Positions 1 to 11,934 of a stretch of DNA of 34,575 nt are shown piece after piece. This DNA is from Desulfohalobiaceae bacterium (lineage in GTDB: Bacteria > Desulfobacterota > Desulfovibrionia > Desulfovibrionales > Desulfothermaceae), in the NCBI GenBank assembly GCA_027013815.1, contig JALWFY010000114.1, positions 1-34,575 on the forward strand, written 5' to 3'. How positions within the stretch are numbered: the first letter of the stretch is position 1; each line of letters opens with the position of its first letter. Under the pieces are notes generated by a model, which did not search any database, was not told where the DNA came from, and worked only from the letters and a program-made list of their open reading frames with translations. The position numbers and the translations under genes were made by a program.

Positions 1-896
1 TCTATGACCCCAGGACCTGCTTGTTTGCCTATCTTACTCATTCCACCTTCTAAGGCCGGACCAGCAGCACCTGCACAGGCCACAAGCCAATCTTTGTTTC
101 CAAGTACTACTTCAGCATTTGTGCCCACATCCACAAAAAGAGATATTTCTTCATTTTTGTGCATACCACAGGCAATTAATCCTGCAAGCAGATCTCCTCC
201 AAAATAGCTCCCAATATTTGGAAACAAAAATACCCTTGCAGCTTTAGACAAATCAAGTCCTATATCACTGGCACTAAATAAATCTAGACGATTTATGGCT
301 GGTATATAGGGTTCCCTTATTATCCAATCTGGAATAATCCCTAAAAACAAATGGGTCATGGCAGTGTTCCCAGCAATGGCTACATTTACTATATTATTTA
401 CATTAACTCCACTGGATTCACATAACCCATGTATATTTTTATTTAAATCATCTACAATAAGATTCCTTAACTCGGCCCTACCCTCATGTGTTTCTGCATA
501 ATGTATCCTTGTTAGGATATCAGGCCCTATATTTACCTGGGGGTTTAAATAGTTCCCTTCACAAACAACCTTTCTGTCAACTAAATCCAAAATACTAACC
601 ACATACCTGGTAGTGCCTAGGTCTACTGCTACCCCCAGAAAATTCTCATCTTTGGTCCCTGTTATCCCTGTTATGTAATATGCACACCTATCCCTAAATA
701 GTGTACATTGCCCAGAAAAATTCTCTCTCCGCACTATCTCTGGTAAAGTCCTTAAAAAAGAGATGTCTCCAATACACCTCTTAATGCCATACTCTTTTTC
801 TATTATCCTATTTAGTCTATCCCAATCACCTGTATTGTCTTTTAAACTAGGCCCTGGCATAGATACATCAATACACCATGAGGTCAGTTTATTCAT
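1..896 (-). CDS. RACo-like corrinoid-protein reductive activator ATPase (partial, lacks N-terminal ferredoxin)
   Basis: The 298 readable residues match the middle and ASKHA ATPase parts of RACo/RamA-type activators (DUF4445 family), which use ATP to reduce inactive Co(II) in corrinoid proteins such as the CoFeSP of the Wood-Ljungdahl pathway. The linker-type start contains 'PGPSLKDNTGDWDRL' (about residues 15-28). The first phosphate-binding motif 'VAVDLGTT' is near 89-96, 'VAIAGNTAMTHLFLG' near 172-186, and 'FVDVGTNAEVVLG' followed by 'CAGAAGPALEGG' near 254-285. The C-terminus runs off the left edge. The start at 896 lies one base past the stop of the PrmA-like gene. In full-length RACo about 100 residues with a [2Fe-2S] ferredoxin fold come before this point; here there is no room for them without entering the upstream gene. 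It is the last visible gene of the cooC-cooC-methyltransferase operon. The family is clear; the exact corrinoid target is inferred. Confidence 0.85.
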   Translation of the reverse strand, partial: MNKLTSWCIDVSMPGPSLKDNTGDWDRLNRIIEKEYGIKRCIGDISFLRTLPEIVRRENFSGQCTLFRDRCAYYITGITGTKDENFLGVAVDLGTTRYVVSILDLVDRKVVCEGNYLNPQVNIGPDILTRIHYAETHEGRAELRNLIVDDLNKNIHGLCESSGVNVNNIVNVAIAGNTAMTHLFLGIIPDWIIREPYIPAINRLDLFSASDIGLDLSKAARVFLFPNIGSYFGGDLLAGLIACGMHKNEEISLFVDVGTNAEVVLGNKDWLVACAGAAGPALEGGMSKIGKQAGPGVI

Positions 897-897
897 A

Positions 898-1710
898 TTA
901 TTTTCTACCTCCAACTATTGTAGGCCAGCCTGAATCTAATCCAAAAATCTCATACACCCTTATCCCCATAGAGACCAGGTTATAGATTATGTCCTTTGCC
1001 TGGGATTCAAATATCCCGGAAAAAACTAAGTATTTAAAATTATTGAATTTTAACAGACATGTAATCTCCTTTAACACATCATAATGTATATTGGCAACTA
1101 AAAGTTCAAATCCATTAAATATAAGCTCCTGTCCCTTCCCCTGGGCTACAACTATTTTATCTTCCATGTAATTTAATCTTAAATTTTTTCTAGTTGTTAT
1201 ACAGGCTAGGGGGTTTAGGTCAACGGCCAGCACCTTTTTAGCCCCTAATTTTACACATACAAGGGACAAGATCCCAGTACCACACCCAAGGTCCAGCACG
1301 GTTTTTACGTCTGAAAAATTGGTAAATAAAAAATTAATGGCTTTAAGACAATTTAGCGTAGTGGCATGGCTCCCAGCCCCAAATACCACTCCTGGGTCCA
1401 GCAAGATGTCTGTATCTTTTTTTGTATTTAATGTTTCCCACACAGGGATTATACGAATTTTTCCTATTTCTAAAGGTCCTATCTTTCCCCCTATCCACTC
1501 AAAATAATCCACTTCAAACACATCTTTTAGAATCAGATTTTTTTGTCTCTCGATTATACCATGTACTATTTCAGGCTGTGGACAAGAGAAAAACAAAAAA
1601 CTATCCCCCTCTTCGATCCAACACCCTAAATAAGAAGGAGAAGTGATATTCCCCCTAAACTTACCTTTAATATAATAGATATAAAGGGTATTATAGGAAC
1701 TATTGTTCAT
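898..1710 (-). CDS. prmA: PrmA-like SAM-dependent protein methyltransferase
   Basis: This 270-residue protein has the layout of ribosomal protein L11 methyltransferase: a poorly conserved N-terminal substrate domain (about 1-100), then the family signature 'DPGVVFGAGSHATT' (about 105-118; the usual form is DPGxAFGTGxHxTT). It is followed by the SAM-binding motif 'VLDLGCGTG' (about 138-146), the acidic ribose-binding stretch 'VLAVDLNPLA' and 'LLVANIHYDVL' in place of the usual NILA motif. It is slightly shorter than typical PrmA (about 290). The start overlaps the upstream cooC stop by four bases (ATGA) and its stop abuts the RACo-like start, so it is translationally coupled within a CODH/corrinoid maturation operon. 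It may be the housekeeping L11 methyltransferase placed here, or a paralogue acting on a Wood-Ljungdahl protein. The sequence does not decide. Confidence 0.8.
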   Translation of the reverse strand: MNNSSYNTLYIYYIKGKFRGNITSPSYLGCWIEEGDSFLFFSCPQPEIVHGIIERQKNLILKDVFEVDYFEWIGGKIGPLEIGKIRIIPVWETLNTKKDTDILLDPGVVFGAGSHATTLNCLKAINFLFTNFSDVKTVLDLGCGTGILSLVCVKLGAKKVLAVDLNPLACITTRKNLRLNYMEDKIVVAQGKGQELIFNGFELLVANIHYDVLKEITCLLKFNNFKYLVFSGIFESQAKDIIYNLVSMGIRVYEIFGLDSGWPTIVGGRK

Positions 1711-2453
1711 ACTATCTTTTTAAAGAGTTCAAATGCACTTTTTACAGCAGCACTATCTTCTGGGAGATCAAATGTGGGTCTTCCCAACATATCATATTCT
1801 AATATATTATCGTCCCTGGAAACACATCCTAAGAGCTCTACCCCCATATCCTGAATATATTTTTTCACAGGTTCAGAGAGCTCTCCTTCAACATTGTTTA
1901 AAATAAGATATGGTCTTCCAATAAGTACGTTTAAGGATTGTGCTAGTTCATTTATCCTTTGAGCAGCCTGCAGGCCCCTCTTAGAGGTATCTGACACAAT
2001 TAATAATATATCCACATCCTTGGTGGTAAGCCTACTTATATGTTCCATACCAGCTTCATTGTCTATTACAATGTAATCGTAATTGCCCACCAATTTAGAC
2101 AAAAATGCTGTTAAAAGCGAATTTGCAGCACAATAACATCCCTGTCCCTCTGGCCTTCCCATGACTATTAGATCAAACTTGTCTGTCTCAATAATGGATT
2201 CCTCTAATTTTGTGTCTATAAACCTGTCCTTAGTCATCCCAACAGGAACATTTCCTCGCTTCATGTCCTCTCTCACATCGCCCAAGGTAAACTCCACGTC
2301 CACTCCAAGTACCTCGTTCAAGTTGTAATTTGAATCTGCATCCACAGCTAGGATTGGATATTTATCATTTTCCATTAAATACCTAATAAAGAGTCCACAC
2401 AGGGTGGTCTTTCCAACACCCCCTTTTCCAGAAAAAGCCACTGTATATGCCAT
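1707..2453 (-). CDS. cooC: CooC-type nickel-insertion ATPase (second paralogue)
   Basis: A 248-residue MinD/ParA-superfamily ATPase of the CooC/AcsF type, which matures the Ni-Fe-S clusters of CO dehydrogenase/acetyl-CoA synthase. The deviant Walker A 'GKGGVGKTT' is at about residues 9-17, 'VDADSNYNLNEVLG' follows at 38-51, and the metal-binding CxC motif appears as C-Y-C (Cys106 and Cys108, in 'GQGCYCAANSLL'). The Walker B-like 'YIVIDNEAG' and 'VSDTSKRGLQAA' complete the family pattern. It lies 30 bases after the first cooC, and its stop overlaps the start of the PrmA-like gene. The first six residues and the CxC neighbourhood differ enough from the other copy that this is an old duplication or two subfamilies rather than a recent repeat. 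One may serve CODH and the other ACS, which is inference. Confidence 0.9.
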   Translation of the reverse strand: MAYTVAFSGKGGVGKTTLCGLFIRYLMENDKYPILAVDADSNYNLNEVLGVDVEFTLGDVREDMKRGNVPVGMTKDRFIDTKLEESIIETDKFDLIVMGRPEGQGCYCAANSLLTAFLSKLVGNYDYIVIDNEAGMEHISRLTTKDVDILLIVSDTSKRGLQAAQRINELAQSLNVLIGRPYLILNNVEGELSEPVKKYIQDMGVELLGCVSRDDNILEYDMLGRPTFDLPEDSAAVKSAFELFKKIV

Positions 2454-2483: not shown

Positions 2484-3227
2484 TTATTTTTTTAATGCAT
2501 CTAATACCTTTATACAAATCTCATCAATATCTTCTCTTTCTGGGAGGTCAAGTACACACGGACTGGTCTGTTGTCTTTGTTCCAATGATTTGAGATAAGG
2601 TATATTTGCAACTATAGGGGGAAGCGCAATGTCTTTGGGAGGCACAAAATCTTCTGATGCCCTATTTAAGACCATGACTTGTTTTTTTAGCCCAAGGTCC
2701 CTGGCAAGTCTGCTAATATTAGAAGCAGTCTGGAGCCCCCGAATACTTGGCTCACTTATAACAATCAAACCGTCCACACTAGTTATGGTACCCCTGCCAA
2801 GGTGTTCCACTCCTGCCTCTAAATCCACTATTAGCCATTGAGAACTCCTAAGTATCATATAGGCCAAGAGTGCCTTCAACATGGCATTGGCAGCACAACC
2901 ACACCCTGAACCAGCCCCTGCAATGGTTCCCATTACTAGAAGTTTCATACCTCTCACGTCTTTGGCCAACTTTTGGGGGAGGTCGTCCACCTCTGGATTT
3001 AGATTAATATATACCCCAGTGCCAACCCTTTCCTGTATTAATTTTTTATTATTTACAAGAGGGATAGGGACCTCTTCTAAAGATAGACCAAGGGCAGGTC
3101 CAAGGGAAATTGCTGTATCAGCGTCAATCAACCATACCTCTTTATTTTGTCGAATAAGATAATCTCCAAGCCACGCAGCTAAGGTAGTCTTCCCTACCCC
3201 TCCTTTACCAGCTATTGCCAATTTCAT
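2484..3227 (-). CDS. cooC: CooC-type nickel-insertion ATPase (first paralogue)
   Basis: A 247-residue CooC family ATPase and the promoter-proximal gene of the minus-strand operon. The deviant Walker A 'GKGGVGKTT' is at about residues 7-15, 'WLIDADTAISLGPALGL' at 32-48, and the CxC motif is C-G-C (Cys109 and Cys111, in 'GSGCGCAANAML'). 'WLIVDLEAGVEHLGRGT' and 'VISEPSIRGLQTA' are typical of CooC rather than of MinD or ParA. CooC dimers bind one metal ion through this CxC pair and hydrolyse ATP while helping load nickel into the C-cluster of CO dehydrogenase. The ATG has a good ribosome-binding site (AAGGAG, eight bases upstream). No CODH structural genes are in the window; they probably lie past the left edge or elsewhere. 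Confidence 0.92.
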   Translation of the reverse strand: MKLAIAGKGGVGKTTLAAWLGDYLIRQNKEVWLIDADTAISLGPALGLSLEEVPIPLVNNKKLIQERVGTGVYINLNPEVDDLPQKLAKDVRGMKLLVMGTIAGAGSGCGCAANAMLKALLAYMILRSSQWLIVDLEAGVEHLGRGTITSVDGLIVISEPSIRGLQTASNISRLARDLGLKKQVMVLNRASEDFVPPKDIALPPIVANIPYLKSLEQRQQTSPCVLDLPEREDIDEICIKVLDALKK

Positions 3228-3908: not shown

Positions 3909-4580
3909 ATGATCGTTGGGACAAGAAAACCATTGGAAGAAATCAAGGCAATGATCTCTCCGTACAAAAAGGTCCTGATTGTAGGTTGTGGTACATGCGT
4001 TGCTGTATGTCTAGCAGGTGGAGAAAAGGAAGTAGAGGTCCTAAAAAATGAATTGTCACTGGCTATGGGAGACAAGGTCTCCTTTGATGGGGTGACCCTA
4101 GAGCGTCAATGTGACAAGGAATTTTTAGAACAATTAAGTGATGTTGTAGACCAATATGATGCCTTTTTATCCATGGCATGCGGTGCTGGTGTCCAATTCC
4201 TATCAGAAGTATATCCAGAAAAGCCAGTGTTTCCTGCAGTAAATACAACATTTATGGGCATTAACAGGGCTGTTGGTTGGTATGAAGAGAGGTGTCGTGG
4301 TTGTGGAAATTGTGTACTTGGTATTACAGGTGGTATATGTCCTGTGACCATGTGTGCCAAGAGCCTATTTAATGGACCATGTGGGGGGACCAACAAGGGA
4401 AAATGTGAAATAGATGAAGAACAGCCCTGTGCCTGGTATATGATATATGAAAGATTGGAAAAACAGGGCAGACTTGATCAAATAATGGATGTGATCCCGG
4501 CTAATAACTGGGAAAATCAAAGGCCAAGGACAGTTATACAACCAGGGTATGAGAATTTATACAATACTTCTTCAAAATAA
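3909..4580 (+). CDS. metV: MetV, iron-sulfur/zinc partner of methylene-THF reductase
   Basis: A 223-residue protein of the 'methylenetetrahydrofolate reductase C-terminal' family, known as MetV in acetogens. There it binds MetF and carries Fe-S clusters that link MetF to an electron donor. The Cys pattern is plain: Cys27, Cys30 and Cys34 in 'GCGTCVAVCLAGG', then a C-terminal set at about 129, 132, 135, 144, 149, 158, 166 and 174, including 'CRGCGNC' and 'FNGPCGG'. The ATG follows AGGAGGG by four bases. metF begins 15 bases downstream, so the pair is co-translated. The combination reduces 5,10-methylene-THF to methyl-THF in the methyl branch of the Wood-Ljungdahl pathway, or runs in reverse during oxidative growth. 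Confidence 0.93.
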   Translation: MIVGTRKPLEEIKAMISPYKKVLIVGCGTCVAVCLAGGEKEVEVLKNELSLAMGDKVSFDGVTLERQCDKEFLEQLSDVVDQYDAFLSMACGAGVQFLSEVYPEKPVFPAVNTTFMGINRAVGWYEERCRGCGNCVLGITGGICPVTMCAKSLFNGPCGGTNKGKCEIDEEQPCAWYMIYERLEKQGRLDQIMDVIPANNWENQRPRTVIQPGYENLYNTSSK

Positions 4581-4595
4581 ATAGGAGGTACATGA

Positions 4596-5537
4596 ATGGA
4601 CAGGAGAAATATTGAAGAGAGCAGTAAATTGGAACGGGTCCTGAGGGAAGGACATTTTGCCTTCACTGCTGAGCTTGGACCTCCTAGGGGAGCAAATGTA
4701 GAAAAGGTCAAGAAAAAAATCTCGTATTTAAAAGGATATGTTGATGCAGTGAATATCACAGATAACCAAACTGCAATTGTGAGGATGTCCAGTTTGGTCA
4801 CCTCCTTACTATGTATAGAGGAAGGACTTGAACCAGTCTATCAAATGGTCTGTAGAGATAGAAACAGATTGGCTATGCAATCTGATATATTAGGTGGTTA
4901 TGCCATGGGAATTCGTACCATTTTATGCCTTTCAGGAGACCACCAAAAATTCGGAGATCACCCCCAGGCAAAAGGAGTATATGACCTAGACTCCATGCAA
5001 CTAGCCGCAATGGTAAAAAAAATGAGAGACGAGGGTAAGTTCCAAGGAGGGGATGATATAGACGTACCGCCTAAAAAAATCTTTATTGGTGCTGCTGCCA
5101 ACCCCTTTGCTGAGCCCTACAATTGGAGGGTATATAGACTTGCCAAAAAGGTAAAGGCAGGAGTAGATTTTATCCAGACCCAGTGTATATATAATATGGA
5201 GAGGTTTAGGGAATGGCTAAAGAGGGCCAATGATATGGGACTCACAGAAAAGGTGTTTATACTCGCAGGGATAACACCACTAAAGAGCGTTGGTATGGCA
5301 AGATATATGCAAAATAAGGTACCAGGTATGGATGTTCCTGAGGACTTAATCAAGCGTCTTAAGGCAGCAGGCAAAGAAAAGGCCGCTGAAGAAGGAATAA
5401 AGATAGCCTGTGAACAAATAGAAGAGATGAAGGAACTAAAAGGAGTTGCAGGAGTCCATCTAATGGCCATAGAATGGGAGCATAGGGTCCCTGAACTTGC
5501 TGAAAGGGCGGGTTTATTACCCCGACCAGAGGTCTAA
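4596..5537 (+). CDS. metF: MetF, 5,10-methylenetetrahydrofolate reductase
   Basis: A 313-residue FAD-containing TIM-barrel reductase. 'FTAELGPPRGA' (about 23-33) holds the catalytic Glu26, equivalent to Glu28 of the E. coli enzyme. 'VNITDNQTA' (52-60), 'CRDRNRLAM' (86-94) and 'GIRTILCLSGDH' (105-116) are the folate- and FAD-contacting strands. Length is close to the family norm. The start at 4596 is preferred over the ATG at 4592, whose frame stops after seven codons; AGGAGG lies at 4583-4588. With metV it forms the MetFV methylene-THF reductase of acetogen type. The Qmo-like flavoproteins directly downstream suggest a dedicated electron-transfer complex. Confidence 0.95.
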   Translation: MDRRNIEESSKLERVLREGHFAFTAELGPPRGANVEKVKKKISYLKGYVDAVNITDNQTAIVRMSSLVTSLLCIEEGLEPVYQMVCRDRNRLAMQSDILGGYAMGIRTILCLSGDHQKFGDHPQAKGVYDLDSMQLAAMVKKMRDEGKFQGGDDIDVPPKKIFIGAAANPFAEPYNWRVYRLAKKVKAGVDFIQTQCIYNMERFREWLKRANDMGLTEKVFILAGITPLKSVGMARYMQNKVPGMDVPEDLIKRLKAAGKEKAAEEGIKIACEQIEEMKELKGVAGVHLMAIEWEHRVPELAERAGLLPRPEV

Positions 5538-5559
5538 AAATAAAGAGGAGAATATAGAT

Positions 5560-6714
5560 ATGAACAAAAAAGTCATGGTCCTGGGAGGAGGTATTGCGGG
5601 CTTAAGTGCTGCTCTTGAACTCTCCAAAAAAAATATCCAGGTAGAACTTGTGGAAAAAACCTGTTTTTTAGGGGGAAAATCCATTGGTTTTACCTGTAAG
5701 GCTACTGATAAATGTCAACAATGTGGTGCCTGTGTGGTGGAAGAGGTATTAAGAGACGTAGTGGAACAACCAAATATTAATGTGCATCTGAGGACAGAAA
5801 TGGAGCAAGTGGTAAAAAATGGGAGATTCAAAGTAAAACTAAAAAAATCAAATTCAATACCTAAAGAAAATCAAATCCTAACAGGATTTTCAAAATACAA
5901 TTCTCCTTATAAAGTAGTTATTGGCAATGTTCAAGGCTCAGAAGATGCAGTTAGTATAGACAGGCTAGGGACAGAAGGAGAATTAGATGTAGATGCACTC
6001 ATCATTGCCACTGGTTTTACCCCCTTTGATCCCACTGCTAGGGCTACATATGGATACAAGAGATGGGGAAATGTGATTACTGCCCTGGAATTAGAGAATA
6101 CATTGAGAACCGAGGTCAAGGCCATTAAACCTTCAGATGGACAAAGGGCAAAAAAAATAGGATTTATTCAATGTGTTGGAAGTAGAAGCCAAACCTTTAA
6201 CAGTGTTTGGTGCTCTGAAGTATGTTGTCCATATGCCTTGAGAATGGCCTCAATGATCAAACATAAATATCCTGATACAGAGATCTGGATATTTTTTATA
6301 GATATTCAAAACGTGGGAAAAGAATACTCCTCCTTTTTAGAACAAATAAAATCAGATATAAAGTTAGTCACTGCAACCCCAATTGATATATTCCCAGCCC
6401 AGGACAACAAGGTGAAAGTTGCGTATGAGGACGACATAGAAGATAGGAGAAAATTAGAGGAATTTGACCTAGTTGTACTCTCAGTGGGCATTATGCCAAA
6501 CAAAGACAATAAAGAACTGTCAAAGATTATAAATATTGACCTATCTGAACATGGATTTTTCAGCGATATAGATCCATTAAGGCCATCTCTTACTTCTAGG
6601 GAGGGGATATTCCTGGCTGGAACTACCACAGGTCCTAAAGATATCCTGAGTACCATATCTCATGCAAAGGGTGCAGTTTGTGAAACCCTGACTTATTTAG
6701 GAGGCAAAAAGTGA
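5560..6714 (+). CDS. QmoA/HdrA-like FAD oxidoreductase subunit
   Basis: A 384-residue flavoprotein of the heterodisulfide reductase HdrA/QmoA family. It starts with the FAD Rossmann motif 'VLGGGIAGLSAALEL' (about 7-21), then 'VEKTCFLGGKSIG' and a Cys cluster at 35, 46, 52, 55 and 58 ('CKATDKCQQCGAC'). 'ALIIATGFTPFDP' is the second nucleotide-associated motif, and the HdrA signature 'CVGSRSQ' with 'WCSEVCCPYALRMA' (Cys205, 218, 222, 223) follows. 'GIFLAGTTTGPKDI' closes the FAD fold. It lacks the extra 2x[4Fe-4S] insertion of full-length HdrA, hence resembles QmoA. An in-frame start lies upstream at 5497, but it would overlap metF by 41 bases; ATG 5560 has AGAGGAG about nine bases before it and starts right at the fold. 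Its end overlaps the next gene (GTGA). Confidence 0.85.
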   Translation: MNKKVMVLGGGIAGLSAALELSKKNIQVELVEKTCFLGGKSIGFTCKATDKCQQCGACVVEEVLRDVVEQPNINVHLRTEMEQVVKNGRFKVKLKKSNSIPKENQILTGFSKYNSPYKVVIGNVQGSEDAVSIDRLGTEGELDVDALIIATGFTPFDPTARATYGYKRWGNVITALELENTLRTEVKAIKPSDGQRAKKIGFIQCVGSRSQTFNSVWCSEVCCPYALRMASMIKHKYPDTEIWIFFIDIQNVGKEYSSFLEQIKSDIKLVTATPIDIFPAQDNKVKVAYEDDIEDRRKLEEFDLVVLSVGIMPNKDNKELSKIINIDLSEHGFFSDIDPLRPSLTSREGIFLAGTTTGPKDILSTISHAKGAVCETLTYLGGKK

Positions 6715-8312
6715 TTGAAATAAACATAAATCCAGATGTCCTTGTAATAGGTGGTGGGGTGGCAGGGATCCTGGCTACCCAAAAAATAAGAAAACAGGGA
6801 TATTCAGTCTCTATCCTAGACCAAGGACAGGGTTTTGAGCCAGACCCCTGTTATAAAATGGAATCAGCCAGTTATTATTCTAATACCATACAAGAGTTAA
6901 AAAAAGACCCCAAGGTTAGCTGGTTAGAAGATGGACAGATTACTAAGGTAGACGGTATGCTTGGGGACTTTAAAGTGTATGTCAAATCAAATGGCAAGGT
7001 AGAGAGAAAGAATTTTGGGGCAATCGTGGTAGCAACCCCATTTGACTGTATCCCTGTGTTTGAAGAATATGGATTGACCCCAGGGGAAAATGTATTTTCA
7101 GTAAATCATTTATTAGAACTCTTATCTGAAAACAAACCACCAACAGGCATTGCTGTATTTCTGACTACCTTCCAAGAAGAGACCAATCCTGTAAGTTTTA
7201 AAAATATAGTCTTAAATGCAATAGAGATCGGTAAATTGGGCTCAACTGTGTATGTGTTTGTTAGAAATGTGAAGACTGCAGCCCCTGGTCTAGAAAAACT
7301 CATACTCCATGCAAAAAATCATGGGGTGATGATTATAAAATCAAATAAAGCACCAGAGGTGGAAATAAAAGATAATAGGCCTATAGTTACCACCTACGAT
7401 CCAATAATCAAAAAAGATATTGAAATATATGCTGATTATGTTATTATAGAAGACAAAATAGTCCCAAATGAAAAAAACAATGAGATTTCCGAGTTATTTG
7501 GAATTCATACTGACTCAAATGGCTTTCTACAGACAAACAATGTAAGAAGGATACCTGTTTTCACTAATAGGAAAGGGATATTTGTAGTGGGATCAGCTGC
7601 TAATATCAAACCCTTTCCCTATATTTTGACTGACGCTATAGATGTAAGTTGCGAGATCCAAGGATTATTAAAAGGTGGTGGGAAGGTAGAAGTTGAGGAG
7701 ACTATCTCAATTGATCAGGAAAAGTGTGTAAGGTGTTTGACTTGTTATAGGGTGTGTCCCCATGGGGCAATATATTGGGATGTGGACAGGGTAGCTATTT
7801 CCTCCTTAGTGTGTGAAGGATGTGGTATATGCACAGCTGAATGTCCAATGAATGCTATTCAGATAAATGAATACTCTGATGATAAGATAAAAGATGAACT
7901 AAAGGATATTTTGAAATCCAAAGGGGATGAGCCACTTTTTGTTGCTTTTTGCTGTAAAAATTCTGCGTTTGAAGCAGCAAAAGGGGCCGAAAAACAAGGA
8001 ATTGATCTACCAAAGGGTTTTAAGGTCATTAAGGTCCCATGTGCTGGGAAGGTAGATGTGGACTATGTATTAGAGGCCCTTGTTAAGGGGGTAGATGGAG
8101 TTATAATAGGGGCATGTTATAAAGACAACTGTAAGTCTGAAAAAGGTAATATATTTGCAAGTTATAGGATAGCCCATTTAAAGGACATCCTATCTCAAAT
8201 AGGAATAAATCCTAAAAGGGTTGAACTCATTAATGTGGCATCCAATATGCCCAAGGAGTTTGGCTTAAAACTCCAGGAAGTATCTAAAAAAATTGTAGGT
8301 ATGGGTAGTTAA
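6711..8312 (+). CDS. QmoB-like FAD/ferredoxin/MvhD fusion oxidoreductase
   Basis: A 533-residue three-part protein. Residues 8-320 are an HdrA-like FAD fold ('VLVIGGGVAG' at 10-19; 'GIFVVGSAAN' near 289-298). Residues 335-385 form a 2x[4Fe-4S] ferredoxin with Cys339/342/345/349 and Cys368/371/374/378. Residues about 405-530 are an MvhD-type [2Fe-2S] domain with 'FVAFCCKN', 'KVPCAGKVD' and 'GACYKDNCKSEKGN' (Cys414, 415, 444, 469, 474). This order is that of QmoB. The GTG start at 6711 shares four bases with the stop of the QmoA-like gene and follows AGGAGG. No QmoC, HdrB or HdrC gene is nearby, so the quinone- or heterodisulfide-reacting end is missing; MetFV is the likely partner (inference). 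Confidence 0.87.
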   Translation: MIEININPDVLVIGGGVAGILATQKIRKQGYSVSILDQGQGFEPDPCYKMESASYYSNTIQELKKDPKVSWLEDGQITKVDGMLGDFKVYVKSNGKVERKNFGAIVVATPFDCIPVFEEYGLTPGENVFSVNHLLELLSENKPPTGIAVFLTTFQEETNPVSFKNIVLNAIEIGKLGSTVYVFVRNVKTAAPGLEKLILHAKNHGVMIIKSNKAPEVEIKDNRPIVTTYDPIIKKDIEIYADYVIIEDKIVPNEKNNEISELFGIHTDSNGFLQTNNVRRIPVFTNRKGIFVVGSAANIKPFPYILTDAIDVSCEIQGLLKGGGKVEVEETISIDQEKCVRCLTCYRVCPHGAIYWDVDRVAISSLVCEGCGICTAECPMNAIQINEYSDDKIKDELKDILKSKGDEPLFVAFCCKNSAFEAAKGAEKQGIDLPKGFKVIKVPCAGKVDVDYVLEALVKGVDGVIIGACYKDNCKSEKGNIFASYRIAHLKDILSQIGINPKRVELINVASNMPKEFGLKLQEVSKKIVGMGS

Positions 8313-8346: not shown

Positions 8347-8736
8347 ATGGGGAAAAAGATAATTTTAGTAGATGATGATCAAGACTTTTGTGAAATCCTT
8401 AAATCAAAGTTAGAAAAAAAAGGATTTTATGTGGATGTGGCCTATGATGGAGATTTGGGACTTGAAAAAGTAAGACAAAGCCCACCTGATATATTGATCC
8501 TAGATGTGATGATGCCCAAAAAATCTGGACTAGAGGTGTGTAAGGAATTAAAATCAGATCCCGCATATCAGGACCTTCCCATAATAATGCTCACTGCTGT
8601 TGCAGAACATATAGGCGAGACCACATATACCCAATATGATGCAATGAGTATGGAAGCAGAAGACTATATCCCCAAAGGGCCTGACTGTACTGACAAAGTA
8701 GTTAAAAGTGTAATGGAGATAGTCTCTCAAGACTAG
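8347..8736 (+). CDS. Stand-alone CheY-like receiver protein
   Basis: A 129-residue single REC domain with no output domain. The acidic pocket is 'LVDDDQDF' (about 7-14), the phosphoacceptor is Asp53 in 'ILILDVMMPKKSG', the conserved Thr is in 'IIMLTAV' and the Lys in 'EDYIPKGP' (Lys110). A short loop rich in Thr/Tyr/Met lies between the Thr and Lys motifs. ATG 8347 is preferred over GTG 8341 because AGGAG at 8338-8342 overlaps the latter and lies four bases from the former. It follows the QmoB-like gene by 34 bases and ends at a terminator, so it appears to be the last gene of the metVF operon. What it regulates is unknown; a protein-protein role on the oxidoreductase is one possibility. Confidence 0.88.
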   Translation: MGKKIILVDDDQDFCEILKSKLEKKGFYVDVAYDGDLGLEKVRQSPPDILILDVMMPKKSGLEVCKELKSDPAYQDLPIIMLTAVAEHIGETTYTQYDAMSMEAEDYIPKGPDCTDKVVKSVMEIVSQD

Positions 8737-8994: not shown

Positions 8995-10470
8995 TCATCC
9001 AACAAGGGGAAGTTTGACCAAAAAAGTACTTCCCTTATTCTTTTCACTAATCACCCCTATGTCTCCCCCAAGGTCGTCTACTATTCCCTTTGCAATGGCA
9101 AGTCCTAATCCAGTACCTGAAATATCCTTAGTAGAATCGTCTTTTACCCTATAAAACCTATTAAATATCTTGTCCTGTTCTTGTTTTGAGATCCCAATAC
9201 CAGTATCCTTTACTGCAACTATACCCATATCCCCTTGTTTATATGTTGATATATAGATCTTTCCCCCTTCAGGGGTATATTTAATTGCATTATTTACCAG
9301 ATTGTTAAACAATATATTGAGTGCCCTGGGATCTGCCTTTATAGTAAAATCTCCCTGGGTGTTGAGCTCTAAAACCATGTGTTGTTTCTTTAACTCTGCC
9401 TGGTCTTTCCAGTCCTCGAACCTGGAACTTAAAAATTCCTCCATATAGATATCCTTTATATCCACATAGACCTTTCCTGATTCTATTCTTGAGAGGTCCA
9501 GTAATTTTTCAATGAGTTCAGTAAGCCCCCTTGTTCGTTGTTTGGCCTTTTCCAATATCCTTTTATCTGCACTGAACTCTGGATCTTCAATTAAGTCTTG
9601 CAACACAAGTGCGATCTGTTCGTGGATAGTGGATAGACTTCCCCTGAGTTCATGGGAAACCCTGGCCACAAACTCAGATTTCAATTGATCTAATTTTTTT
9701 AACGGAGTTATATCCATTGATATAACTACATATCCCAACAATTTTTGGTCTTCTGAAAAAATAGAGTTCTTTTTTATAAGTAAATAGAGGTCATCATTTA
9801 TCTTGAACTCACAAGATATATCCCCTTCCTCTTCAATACCAAATAAAATAAAGTCCAACACCTTATCGTGTGTTATATAATATGAAATGTCTAATCCCAG
9901 GGGAACAGAATCTGAAATAGAAAAATGTTTTCTAATAGTGTTATTTATGAGTACAACCTCTCTATTATTATTTGTAACCAAGACCCCATTTGGAAGGACC
10001 TCTAAAATAGTCTTCAACCTACTCTTTTCTGTGATTAGATCCAGTAGTGCGTCTTTTCTCTCTTTATCCAGTCTCTCCTTCTCCTGTATAAGCAATATAT
10101 TGTCTAGGGCCCTTTTTACTACCAGTAGGATATGTTCTTTATCAAAGGACTTTGGTATAAAATCATAGGCACCTTGTTTCATGGATTCAACAGCAATCTC
10201 CAAGGTGGCAAAACCTGTTATAATGATAACCAATATATGGGGATCAATCTCCTCTTTTATGGTACGCAACACATCCATCCCATCTATGCCTGGCATCTTT
10301 AAATCCAAAAGGACTAAATCAACTCTAGTGTCCTTTAATATAGAAAGAGACTCCTCTCCATCTTCTGCAAGTAATACTTCACAGCCAAGCCTAGATAAAA
10401 TTCTACTCAGGGCAATCCTTATATGTTCTTCATCGTCAACTACTAATATGCGTATTGACTCATACCCCAT
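8995..10470 (-). CDS. Hybrid response regulator/histidine kinase (REC-PAS-HisKA-HATPase)
   Basis: A 491-residue cytoplasmic signalling protein. REC is at about 1-120 ('LVVDDEEHIR', phosphoacceptor Asp56 in 'LLDLKMPG', 'IIITGFA', Lys107 in 'DFIPKSFDK'), followed by a helical linker (120-155) and a PAS domain (about 155-258). The HisKA helix has His273 in 'RVSHELRGSL', and the HATPase carries 'LVNNAIKYT', 'VKDTGIGIS' and 'GTGLGLAIAKG'. No membrane segment is seen. An upstream GTG (10476) is possible, but AGGAG lies only one base from it and seven from ATG 10470, so the latter is chosen. It starts 18 bases after the stop of the neighbouring kinase, so phosphoryl transfer from that kinase to this REC domain is likely (inference). 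Confidence 0.92.
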   Translation of the reverse strand: MGYESIRILVVDDEEHIRIALSRILSRLGCEVLLAEDGEESLSILKDTRVDLVLLDLKMPGIDGMDVLRTIKEEIDPHILVIIITGFATLEIAVESMKQGAYDFIPKSFDKEHILLVVKRALDNILLIQEKERLDKERKDALLDLITEKSRLKTILEVLPNGVLVTNNNREVVLINNTIRKHFSISDSVPLGLDISYYITHDKVLDFILFGIEEEGDISCEFKINDDLYLLIKKNSIFSEDQKLLGYVVISMDITPLKKLDQLKSEFVARVSHELRGSLSTIHEQIALVLQDLIEDPEFSADKRILEKAKQRTRGLTELIEKLLDLSRIESGKVYVDIKDIYMEEFLSSRFEDWKDQAELKKQHMVLELNTQGDFTIKADPRALNILFNNLVNNAIKYTPEGGKIYISTYKQGDMGIVAVKDTGIGISKQEQDKIFNRFYRVKDDSTKDISGTGLGLAIAKGIVDDLGGDIGVISEKNKGSTFLVKLPLVG

Positions 10471-10488
10471 GCCCACTCTCCTAAAAAT

Positions 10489-11934
10489 CTAACCCCGGTT
10501 CACAGGAAGGATTATCTCAAAACAAGCTCCGCCCTGTTCTTTATTATAGGCTCGAATCTTTCCCTTATGATTCTCTACTATCCTGTAAGCAATACTAAGC
10601 CCTAATCCAAGACCGTCCCCTTGTTTCTTTGTTGAAAAAAATGGATCAAATATATTTGGCAGGATCTCCTCGTCTATACCAGGGCCTGTATCACAAAACT
10701 CTATTTTCACCTTTTCTCCTGGTAATTTTTGGGTGATTATGTATAATGTTCCCTTCCCTTTCATGGCCTGTGCAGCATTCCATATAATATTCATAAAAAC
10801 ATGATTTAATTGTTGGACATCGCATTTTATCTCAGGTAGTCCTAAATCATACTTTTTAATTATTTTAATATTCTTAAACAAGGAGTGTTTTTCCAATAAA
10901 AACAGCGTCCTATCTATTGCTTTATTCAAATCTGCAAAAAAAGGAGTCCCTCCACCTTGTCTGGAAAACTCCAGGAGTTCTTTTACTGTATCTTTACACC
11001 TCTTTGCATTCTCCAATATCCTAGTCAAATCTTGTTTTATCCTATCTTCCAACTCCTCTTCTAACAGGAGTTCAGAAAACAATATAATACTACTTAAGGG
11101 ATTATTTAATTGATGGGCTACCCCTGCAGCAAGATTACCAAGGGCCGCCATTTTTGATGACTGATACAACTGCATCCTTGTCTCTTCTAGTTCCTTTTCC
11201 ATATTAATAGTTTCTCTTAGATCGTGAAAAAATCCAATGGTTGCTACTTCAACTCCATTCTCATAAATAATGGATGCATTTAACTCTACTGGAATCAACT
11301 CTCCTTGCTTTGTTAAAAGCTCGACCCTATATGATTTTAATTTCCCAGGCCCTCCATGGTCTTTATTTCTTAATTTTTTCATGACCTCCCTGGCCATATC
11401 TCCAGGATATATATCCCGAATATCTACACAAGATAGGGCATCCTCCCTTGGATACCCCAGGATCTTTGATGCAGCATCATTAAATATAAATATCTTGCCC
11501 TTTTTGTCTGCAGCAATAACTGCATCTACTGCGCTTAAAATCAAATTATGTAAAAAGGTATTAGATAAATGCAACTTTTTTTCTAACTGGTCCATAGCAG
11601 TGATATCAAAGTCCAGCCTCACCACACATTGTTTTCCATCTGGGCCAATCATTGGGAAGAGGGTTACCTTATCCTCAAAATATAAATCTGCAAAACTACC
11701 TTCCTGCCTCTTATCCTCTCCTTCTACCACCTGATTTATCTTACATTTAATACATGGGCTATCCATGCCAAAATAGATCTCATAACACCTTTTACCTATT
11801 ATATCCTCTCCATAAATATCTTTGGCAAACTTATTTGCAGCACATATAATATGGTCCATGGAAATAACCATAAGCTCCCTGGGTATGGCATCTGCAACTG
11901 CAAGTAGATATTCCTTTTCTCTCTGATCAATCAT
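10489..11934 (-). CDS. PAS-PAS histidine kinase with Cys-rich first PAS domain
   Basis: A 481-residue soluble sensor kinase. The first PAS domain (about 10-115) carries Cys50 and a CxxC (Cys61, Cys64) in 'GKRCYEIYFGMDSPCIKC', a pattern that could bind a metal or sense redox state. The second PAS (about 128-240) contains 'FNDAASKILGYPREDAL'. HisKA has His274 in 'AAGVAHQLNNPLS'. The HATPase shows 'MNIIWNAAQAM', 'FCDTGPGIDEEI', 'NIFDPFFSTK' and 'GLGLGLSIAYRI', the NtrB-like type. No receiver or membrane segment is present. The start follows GGGGA by five bases. It is the fourth gene of the kdsB operon and likely partners the hybrid kinase immediately downstream. Confidence 0.92.
   Translation of the reverse strand: MIDQREKEYLLAVADAIPRELMVISMDHIICAANKFAKDIYGEDIIGKRCYEIYFGMDSPCIKCKINQVVEGEDKRQEGSFADLYFEDKVTLFPMIGPDGKQCVVRLDFDITAMDQLEKKLHLSNTFLHNLILSAVDAVIAADKKGKIFIFNDAASKILGYPREDALSCVDIRDIYPGDMAREVMKKLRNKDHGGPGKLKSYRVELLTKQGELIPVELNASIIYENGVEVATIGFFHDLRETINMEKELEETRMQLYQSSKMAALGNLAAGVAHQLNNPLSSIILFSELLLEEELEDRIKQDLTRILENAKRCKDTVKELLEFSRQGGGTPFFADLNKAIDRTLFLLEKHSLFKNIKIIKKYDLGLPEIKCDVQQLNHVFMNIIWNAAQAMKGKGTLYIITQKLPGEKVKIEFCDTGPGIDEEILPNIFDPFFSTKKQGDGLGLGLSIAYRIVENHKGKIRAYNKEQGGACFEIILPVNRG

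Follow-up and report, generated by a model that had tools for sequence, protein, structure and literature searches.

The stretch analysed here (the window, 34,575 nucleotides) corresponds to contig C114 in the 2.59 Mb draft assembly of a Desulfohalobiaceae bacterium (219 contigs, 95.2% complete, 0.15% contamination). Positions 3909-8312 of its forward strand hold four genes in one tight operon, as assigned from open reading frames (ORFs) and Pfam domains. The metV gene (3909..4580, 223 amino acids (aa); PF12225, E 1e-37) and the metF gene (4596..5537, 313 aa; PF02219, E 2e-38) encode the Fe-S and catalytic subunits of a predicted methylene-tetrahydrofolate (methylene-THF) reductase. They are followed by the gene of an HdrA/QmoA-like flavoprotein of the HdrA type, predicted to bind flavin adenine dinucleotide (FAD) and termed A (5560..6714; HdrA structure matches, E 1e-62), and by the gene of a QmoB-like flavo-Fe-S protein of 533 aa, termed B (6711..8312; Pyr_redox, two Fer4 and FlpD/MvhD, PF02662). 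The intergenic gaps are 15 bp with AGGAGG between metV and metF, and 22 bp with GAGGAG between metF and A; the A and B genes overlap (GTGA). The ORF list places the start of A at a TTG at 5497, and an ATG with a ribosome-binding site lies at 5560; the start codon of B is a GTG overlapping the stop of A. A further gap of 34 bp with AGGAG leads to a single-domain response regulator (8347..8736, forward strand; PF00072) with its own ATG and ribosome-binding site. These junctions extend the operon to the response regulator, its final gene, ending at 8736. The preliminary description had put metV, metF, A and B in one operon with an MvhD domain in B, and the ORFs, Pfam matches and junctions bear this out. 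Genes for HdrB, HdrC and QmoC were not found inside the operon, and scans for promoters and terminators gave no signal above chance.

The distribution of this operon was studied in 395 genomes sampled from the phylum. A MetV domain occurs in 301 of them, and about 60 MetV loci were read. The usual order in these loci is HdrA-MvhD-MetV-MetF, some having HdrC-HdrB upstream. The order metV-metF-A-B or metV-A-B was found in seven relatives from the same family. The complete order is intact in G007, lies on two contig fragments in G002, and is broken by stops in G001. The last of these loci (L061, G001:C3) has many stops in a genome that is 43% complete, which may reflect assembly error or decay. 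In the other four genomes (G004, G005, G006 and G008), metV-A-B has no metF and different surroundings (L062-L065), lying beside Rrf2-, Mrp/MinD- and MBL-fold-like genes; at these loci A-B and MetV may together play a second role. Outside the family, metV-metF-A-B was found at high score only in G381, G096 and G436, which belong to two other families of the sample. Since the order recurs both inside the family and outside it, in two others, it is not a product of chance. The survey of neighbourhoods proposed in the preliminary description thus identifies MetVF with two HdrA-type flavoproteins and MvhD as a conserved unit.

Protein A has no N-terminal Hdr domain, and its architecture is QmoA-like; in gene order and domain layout, the A-B pair likewise resembles QmoA and QmoB of the QmoABC complex of sulfate reducers. 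This likeness favours a reading of the pair as the true Qmo complex for reduction of adenosine 5'-phosphosulfate, located beside metVF by chance, but such a reading is hardly credible. The genome has an intact cluster on another contig (C57) made up of sat, aprB, aprA, qmoA (412 aa), qmoB (799 aa in its longest frame) and qmoC (403 aa), the qmo subunits being assigned by Pfam, and sat and apr by sequence and gene order. In a tree of 29 A-type, 18 QmoA and 21 HdrA-type rows, the A-type clade (support 100/98) and the QmoA clade (100/100) are on opposite sides. The A-B pair is linked neither to aprBA and sat nor to qmoC, its linkage to MetV is conserved, and B is without the long extra N-terminal region of QmoB. 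A profile of B gives 618-678 bits to B proteins of sister operons, 316-487 bits to B of other A-B pairs, less than about 330 bits to HdrA and 208 bits to QmoB of the same genome; by these scores, B behaves as a family of its own. The identity of A and B with Qmo, named in the preliminary description as the outcome that would overturn it, is thus ruled out by the tree, the C57 cluster, the profile scores and the conserved MetV link. The best named record for B comes from a Desulfohalobiaceae metagenome-assembled genome (isolate 4559-240; 78% identity). Only one match in a contig scan with B was a true relative; the 26 others were mostly to ferredoxin or HdrA.

Two cysteine motifs are conserved in A. 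The four-Cys motif CKATDKCQQCGAC (5695..5733, forward strand) retains all four Cys in 29/29 A-type proteins, and its complete form is present in none of the compared HdrA domains nor in QmoA of the same genome; we infer from this pattern a self-contained [4Fe-4S] site. The HdrA-type cluster motif C...C...CC beside the flavin (6172..6228, forward strand) has its four Cys in all 29 A-type and all 24 other rows. Protein B contains two [4Fe-4S] ferredoxin motifs (7704..7862, forward strand; Fer4 matches at aa 332-384), whose Cys 339, 342, 345, 349, 368, 371, 374 and 378 are invariant across seven B proteins, and an MvhD/FlpD domain (7941..8306, forward strand; PF02662, E 3e-33). In an alignment of the seven B proteins with QmoB, this domain does not retain the Trp-Cys found in the canonical FCxWC motif. 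The structures that AlphaFold predicted for A and B from alignments of two sequences were of unusable quality (mean predicted local distance difference test scores of 34 and 53).

At many loci of the phylum, the HdrA linked to MetVF is a single protein of 1000-1500 aa that contains two TrxR-type domains, and a separate MvhD comes after it. The HdrA of Sporomusa ovata has two TrxR-like domains, with the Glu/Lys pair in just one of them (PMC9430772), and a Moorella protein was described with two fused HdrA domains (PMC9012536). We read A and B as a split form of such a two-domain HdrA, with MvhD fused to B. Two HdrA flavins at a MetVF locus, which the preliminary description had pointed out, are therefore not peculiar to the window but shared with many Desulfobacterota loci and with S. 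ovata.

The bifurcation marker positions of A (6094..6243, forward strand) were located by HMMER alignment to 5odc_A. The equivalent of E356 is retained (6094-6096), and the equivalent of K409 is Arg (6241-6243); B has neither marker residue, so that the Glu/Arg pair sits in A. The A-type signature in the alignment consists of CKATDxCxxCxxC (29/29), the E356 equivalent (26/29) and Arg for K409 (28/29), the last position staying cationic with Lys in G005. These residues, together with the bifurcation proposed for related MetFV-HdrABC-MvhD complexes (PMC5861303; PMC9430772), allow that A, with Arg for Lys, bifurcates or confurcates electrons among methylene/methyl-THF, ferredoxin and a third carrier. 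We consider this unlikely. The K409 marker is replaced across the A-type clade, B is without both residues, and neither protein has the inserted ferredoxin domain of bifurcating HdrA or an extra NADH module; full bifurcation was not demonstrated even for the Moorella complex (PMC8760232). Judged from these residues, bifurcation by the window complex is possible but unsupported, and the suggestion of a flavin-based bifurcation built in a different way is not borne out, the K409 equivalent in A being Arg.

The preliminary description also noted that HdrB and HdrC are missing. This holds for the operon in the window, but not for the genome or for sister operons. In G381, G096 and G436, a gene for a fused HdrC-HdrB (HdrD-type) protein lies 70-100 bp 3' of B on the same strand. 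The encoded proteins have Fer4_8 and CCG domains and are 73-78% identical to a protein encoded on contig C130 of the genome studied here. The C130 gene (L066; 4950-6284 of that contig, forward strand) adjoins HdrA, FrhB-like and Mvh-type hydrogenase genes. Two more HdrD-type genes of this genome, on C21 and C162, encode proteins 71% and 62% identical to that of C130, and a separate HdrB/HdrC pair is located on C106; qmoC is the C57 gene. The three sister HdrD-type genes and the C130 gene share an in-frame UGA at one site, which aligns with Cys in the C162 paralog. This is the pattern of a selenoprotein, and the HdrD-type proteins of C130 and of loci L189-L191 are likely selenoproteins. In most other lineages examined (L195, L198-L201, L203-L206), A-B pairs adjoin HdrC/HdrB or HdrD genes. 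HdrBC is therefore missing from the window operon only, and not from the organism or from this type of operon. A precedent for hdrBC encoded apart from a met operon is the met cluster of Thermacetogenium phaeum, with hdrA in the cluster and hdrBC at another locus (PMC6895022).

We propose that the window encodes a methylene-THF reductase that is soluble, has its HdrA split in two and receives HdrD in trans, and assign this reading a probability of roughly 0.5. It draws on what was seen directly: gene content and order, conservation, lineages, residues and homologs elsewhere in the genome. Its cofactors, electron path and reaction direction, like the partner in trans, belong to the proposal. 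A would hold one FAD and two [4Fe-4S] sites; B would contribute another flavoprotein domain, a degenerate one, along with two ferredoxin clusters and the MvhD-like domain. Electrons would pass between MetF and the partner by way of MetV, the MvhD domain of B, the ferredoxin clusters of B and A, in this order. The partner would most likely be the fused HdrC-HdrB (HdrD-type) selenocysteine (Sec) protein, as encoded 3' of B in the sister operons, provided here in trans by one of the three related genes, for example that on C130. The carrier on the other side of HdrD would then be a DsrC-like thiol/disulfide protein or the C130 hydrogenase-Hdr complex, and not NADH. Pulldowns in S. ovata showed that MvhD and HdrA bind HdrB and MetF (PMC9430772). 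NADH is unlikely to take part because Pfam detects no extra NADH-binding module in A or B, although a missing Pfam match is weak evidence.

Several points weigh against HdrD as the partner in trans. In this organism, the association of MetVF, A-B and HdrD is a prediction from gene evidence. The HdrD homologs of the genome belong to separate operons that contain their own HdrA partners, and no family member with A-B has an HdrD gene linked to the pair. In four relatives metF is missing beside metV-A-B, so A-B may serve another reaction too. The genome itself is a draft, about 95% complete in 219 contigs. The lack of an HdrD gene linked to A-B in the family would also suit a simpler role of the pair as a ferredoxin (or flavodoxin) adaptor for MetVF, involving no HdrD, quinone or bifurcation, and enzymes of the MetVF type do work with reduced ferredoxin in vitro (PMC8760232). 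We regard such a role as distinctly improbable, as MetVF uses ferredoxin without any such module, and HdrD is kept beside B in the sister operons.

The MetF and MetV trees, the former built from Desulfobacterota sequences only, with Moorella and Sporomusa not included, separate this enzyme from the common one. The window MetF belongs to a clade of 19 rows (support 99/93) whose other members are standalone, membrane-linked or A/B-linked MetF, excluding most HdrA-linked MetF and thereby ruling out its placement in the common HdrA-MvhD-linked lineage. Holding the window MetF together with HdrA-linked MetF was rejected (approximately unbiased test, p 5e-65), a value partly driven by the HdrA-linked set itself not being one clade. 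Similarly, the window MetV groups with A/B-linked and membrane-linked MetV (19 rows; SH-aLRT, the Shimodaira-Hasegawa-like approximate likelihood ratio test, 99). The genome also has a second metF, metF2 (L166; 8528-9445 of C116, forward strand), about 74% identical to the window metF. It lies beside nadA- and metX/metW-like genes, giving the locus the look of methionine and NAD synthesis, and the same standalone metF is present in G003, G005 and G006. Upstream of HdrA, common met loci (L111, L114, L116, L122, L138, L167 and others) encode a MetF-like protein of about 290-320 aa that is divergent, at 21-36% identity.

The membrane-linked operon has the order metF-cytochrome b-HdrC-like FeS-metV and was found at about 10 loci in several Desulfobacterota families. 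Its cytochrome b is NarI/TmcC-like, about 225 aa long, with five conserved His in 17 proteins. The operon likely encodes a quinone-linked methylene-THF reductase. A cytochrome b-HdrC-like FeS-metV2 module is present in the genome studied here on C82 (L106; 9045-10846 of that contig, reverse strand), others being L162, L165 and L248-L258, most of the loci outside this genome including metF as well. Its presence, the five His, and the common clades of C82 and window MetV, and of membrane-linked and window MetF, could mean that MetVF-A-B docks on this split QmoC-like module and exchanges electrons with menaquinone as a full Qmo-like reductase. This is quite unlikely, given that G006, G007, G096 and G436 have A-B and no close homolog of the module, and that the module of other families already includes a MetF and a MetV of its own and lacks A-B. 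The same four genomes make A-B and the module independent of each other, and rule out that A-B always requires the module. We tentatively suggest that Desulfobacterota may possess a second MetVF lineage, wired not to HdrA-MvhD but to Qmo-like parts, either the QmoAB-like pair and an HdrD encoded in cis or in trans, as in the window's branch, or a split QmoC-like membrane module; the case for it falls somewhat short of even. In the open-licence literature searched, we found no description of a MetVF-QmoAB-like or MetVF-cytochrome b operon.

Besides QmoABC, three known systems are close to this operon. The Type IV methylene-THF reductase MetVF-HdrCBA-MvhD of Moorella thermoacetica and S. ovata shares with it MetV, MetF, HdrA-type domains and MvhD in one operon. 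In contrast to Type IV, the window HdrA is split into A and B, MvhD is fused to B, the operon has no HdrBC, MetF is outside the lineage of most HdrA-MvhD-linked MetF of the phylum, and an extra NADH-binding domain is absent. The Type IV pair of E356 and K409 at the bifurcating flavin is represented by Glu and Arg in A and by neither residue in B. The met cluster of T. phaeum likewise has metFV with hdrA only, hdrBC being elsewhere (PMC6895022), but it belongs to another phylum and has a single HdrA gene with no A/B split. Type II QmoAB and QmoAB-HdrBC/HdrD (PMC10504309) also include a QmoA/QmoB-like pair apart from the classical Qmo, and in Type II QmoAB-HdrD, HdrD takes the place of QmoC as in the sister operons of the window. 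However, A-B is paired with MetVF and not with AprBA, and the likeness is by description, without Ammonifex or Vulcanisaeta sequences. The HdrD or HdrBC gene beside the pair is absent from the window and present at L189-L191 and at most other A-B loci; in the tree of A-type, QmoA and HdrA-type rows, A is separate from QmoA.

The surroundings of the operon place it in a Wood-Ljungdahl setting, as its neighbours are two CooC-type ATPases and a RACo-like reactivator. One ATPase gene, of the type acting in carbon monoxide dehydrogenase (CODH) maturation, is divergent from metV (2484..3227, reverse strand; CbiA/ParA matches), and a gene of its type also adjoins metV in G001. For the second CooC-type ATPase (1707..2453, reverse strand), a 64% homolog adjoins metVF-A-B in G007. 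The RACo-like reactivator of the corrinoid Fe-S protein (1..914, reverse strand; Raco_middle, E 4e-55) is truncated at the window end. Also upstream of the operon and divergent is a gene that is PrmA-like by its sequence alone. The beta subunit of CODH/acetyl-CoA synthase was found in 10 of the 11 family genomes, that of the window's genome being a partial match at a contig end. Of 70 metF loci, about 20 encode a single-domain receiver directly 3' of metF that is 39-62% identical to the response regulator (62% at best, in G004), and this conservation connects the operon with common met loci despite the differing MetVF lineage. Two histidine kinase genes are nearby (region 8995-11934), and their homologs lie directly 3' of metF in L135, L141 and L153. 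The response regulator and these kinases perhaps form a dedicated two-component system for met loci.

Work on the Wood-Ljungdahl pathway has long asked how methylene-THF reductase connects to electron carriers and whether it conserves energy (PMC8578096, PMC8760232). Defined gene sets for testing the electron partner in sulfate reducers are provided by MetVF with its split HdrA and an HdrD encoded in cis or in trans, and by the sister lineage joined to cytochrome b. If the proposed second lineage is real, its membrane branch would be a methyl-THF:menaquinone oxidoreductase, placing the methylene-THF step within the respiratory chain.

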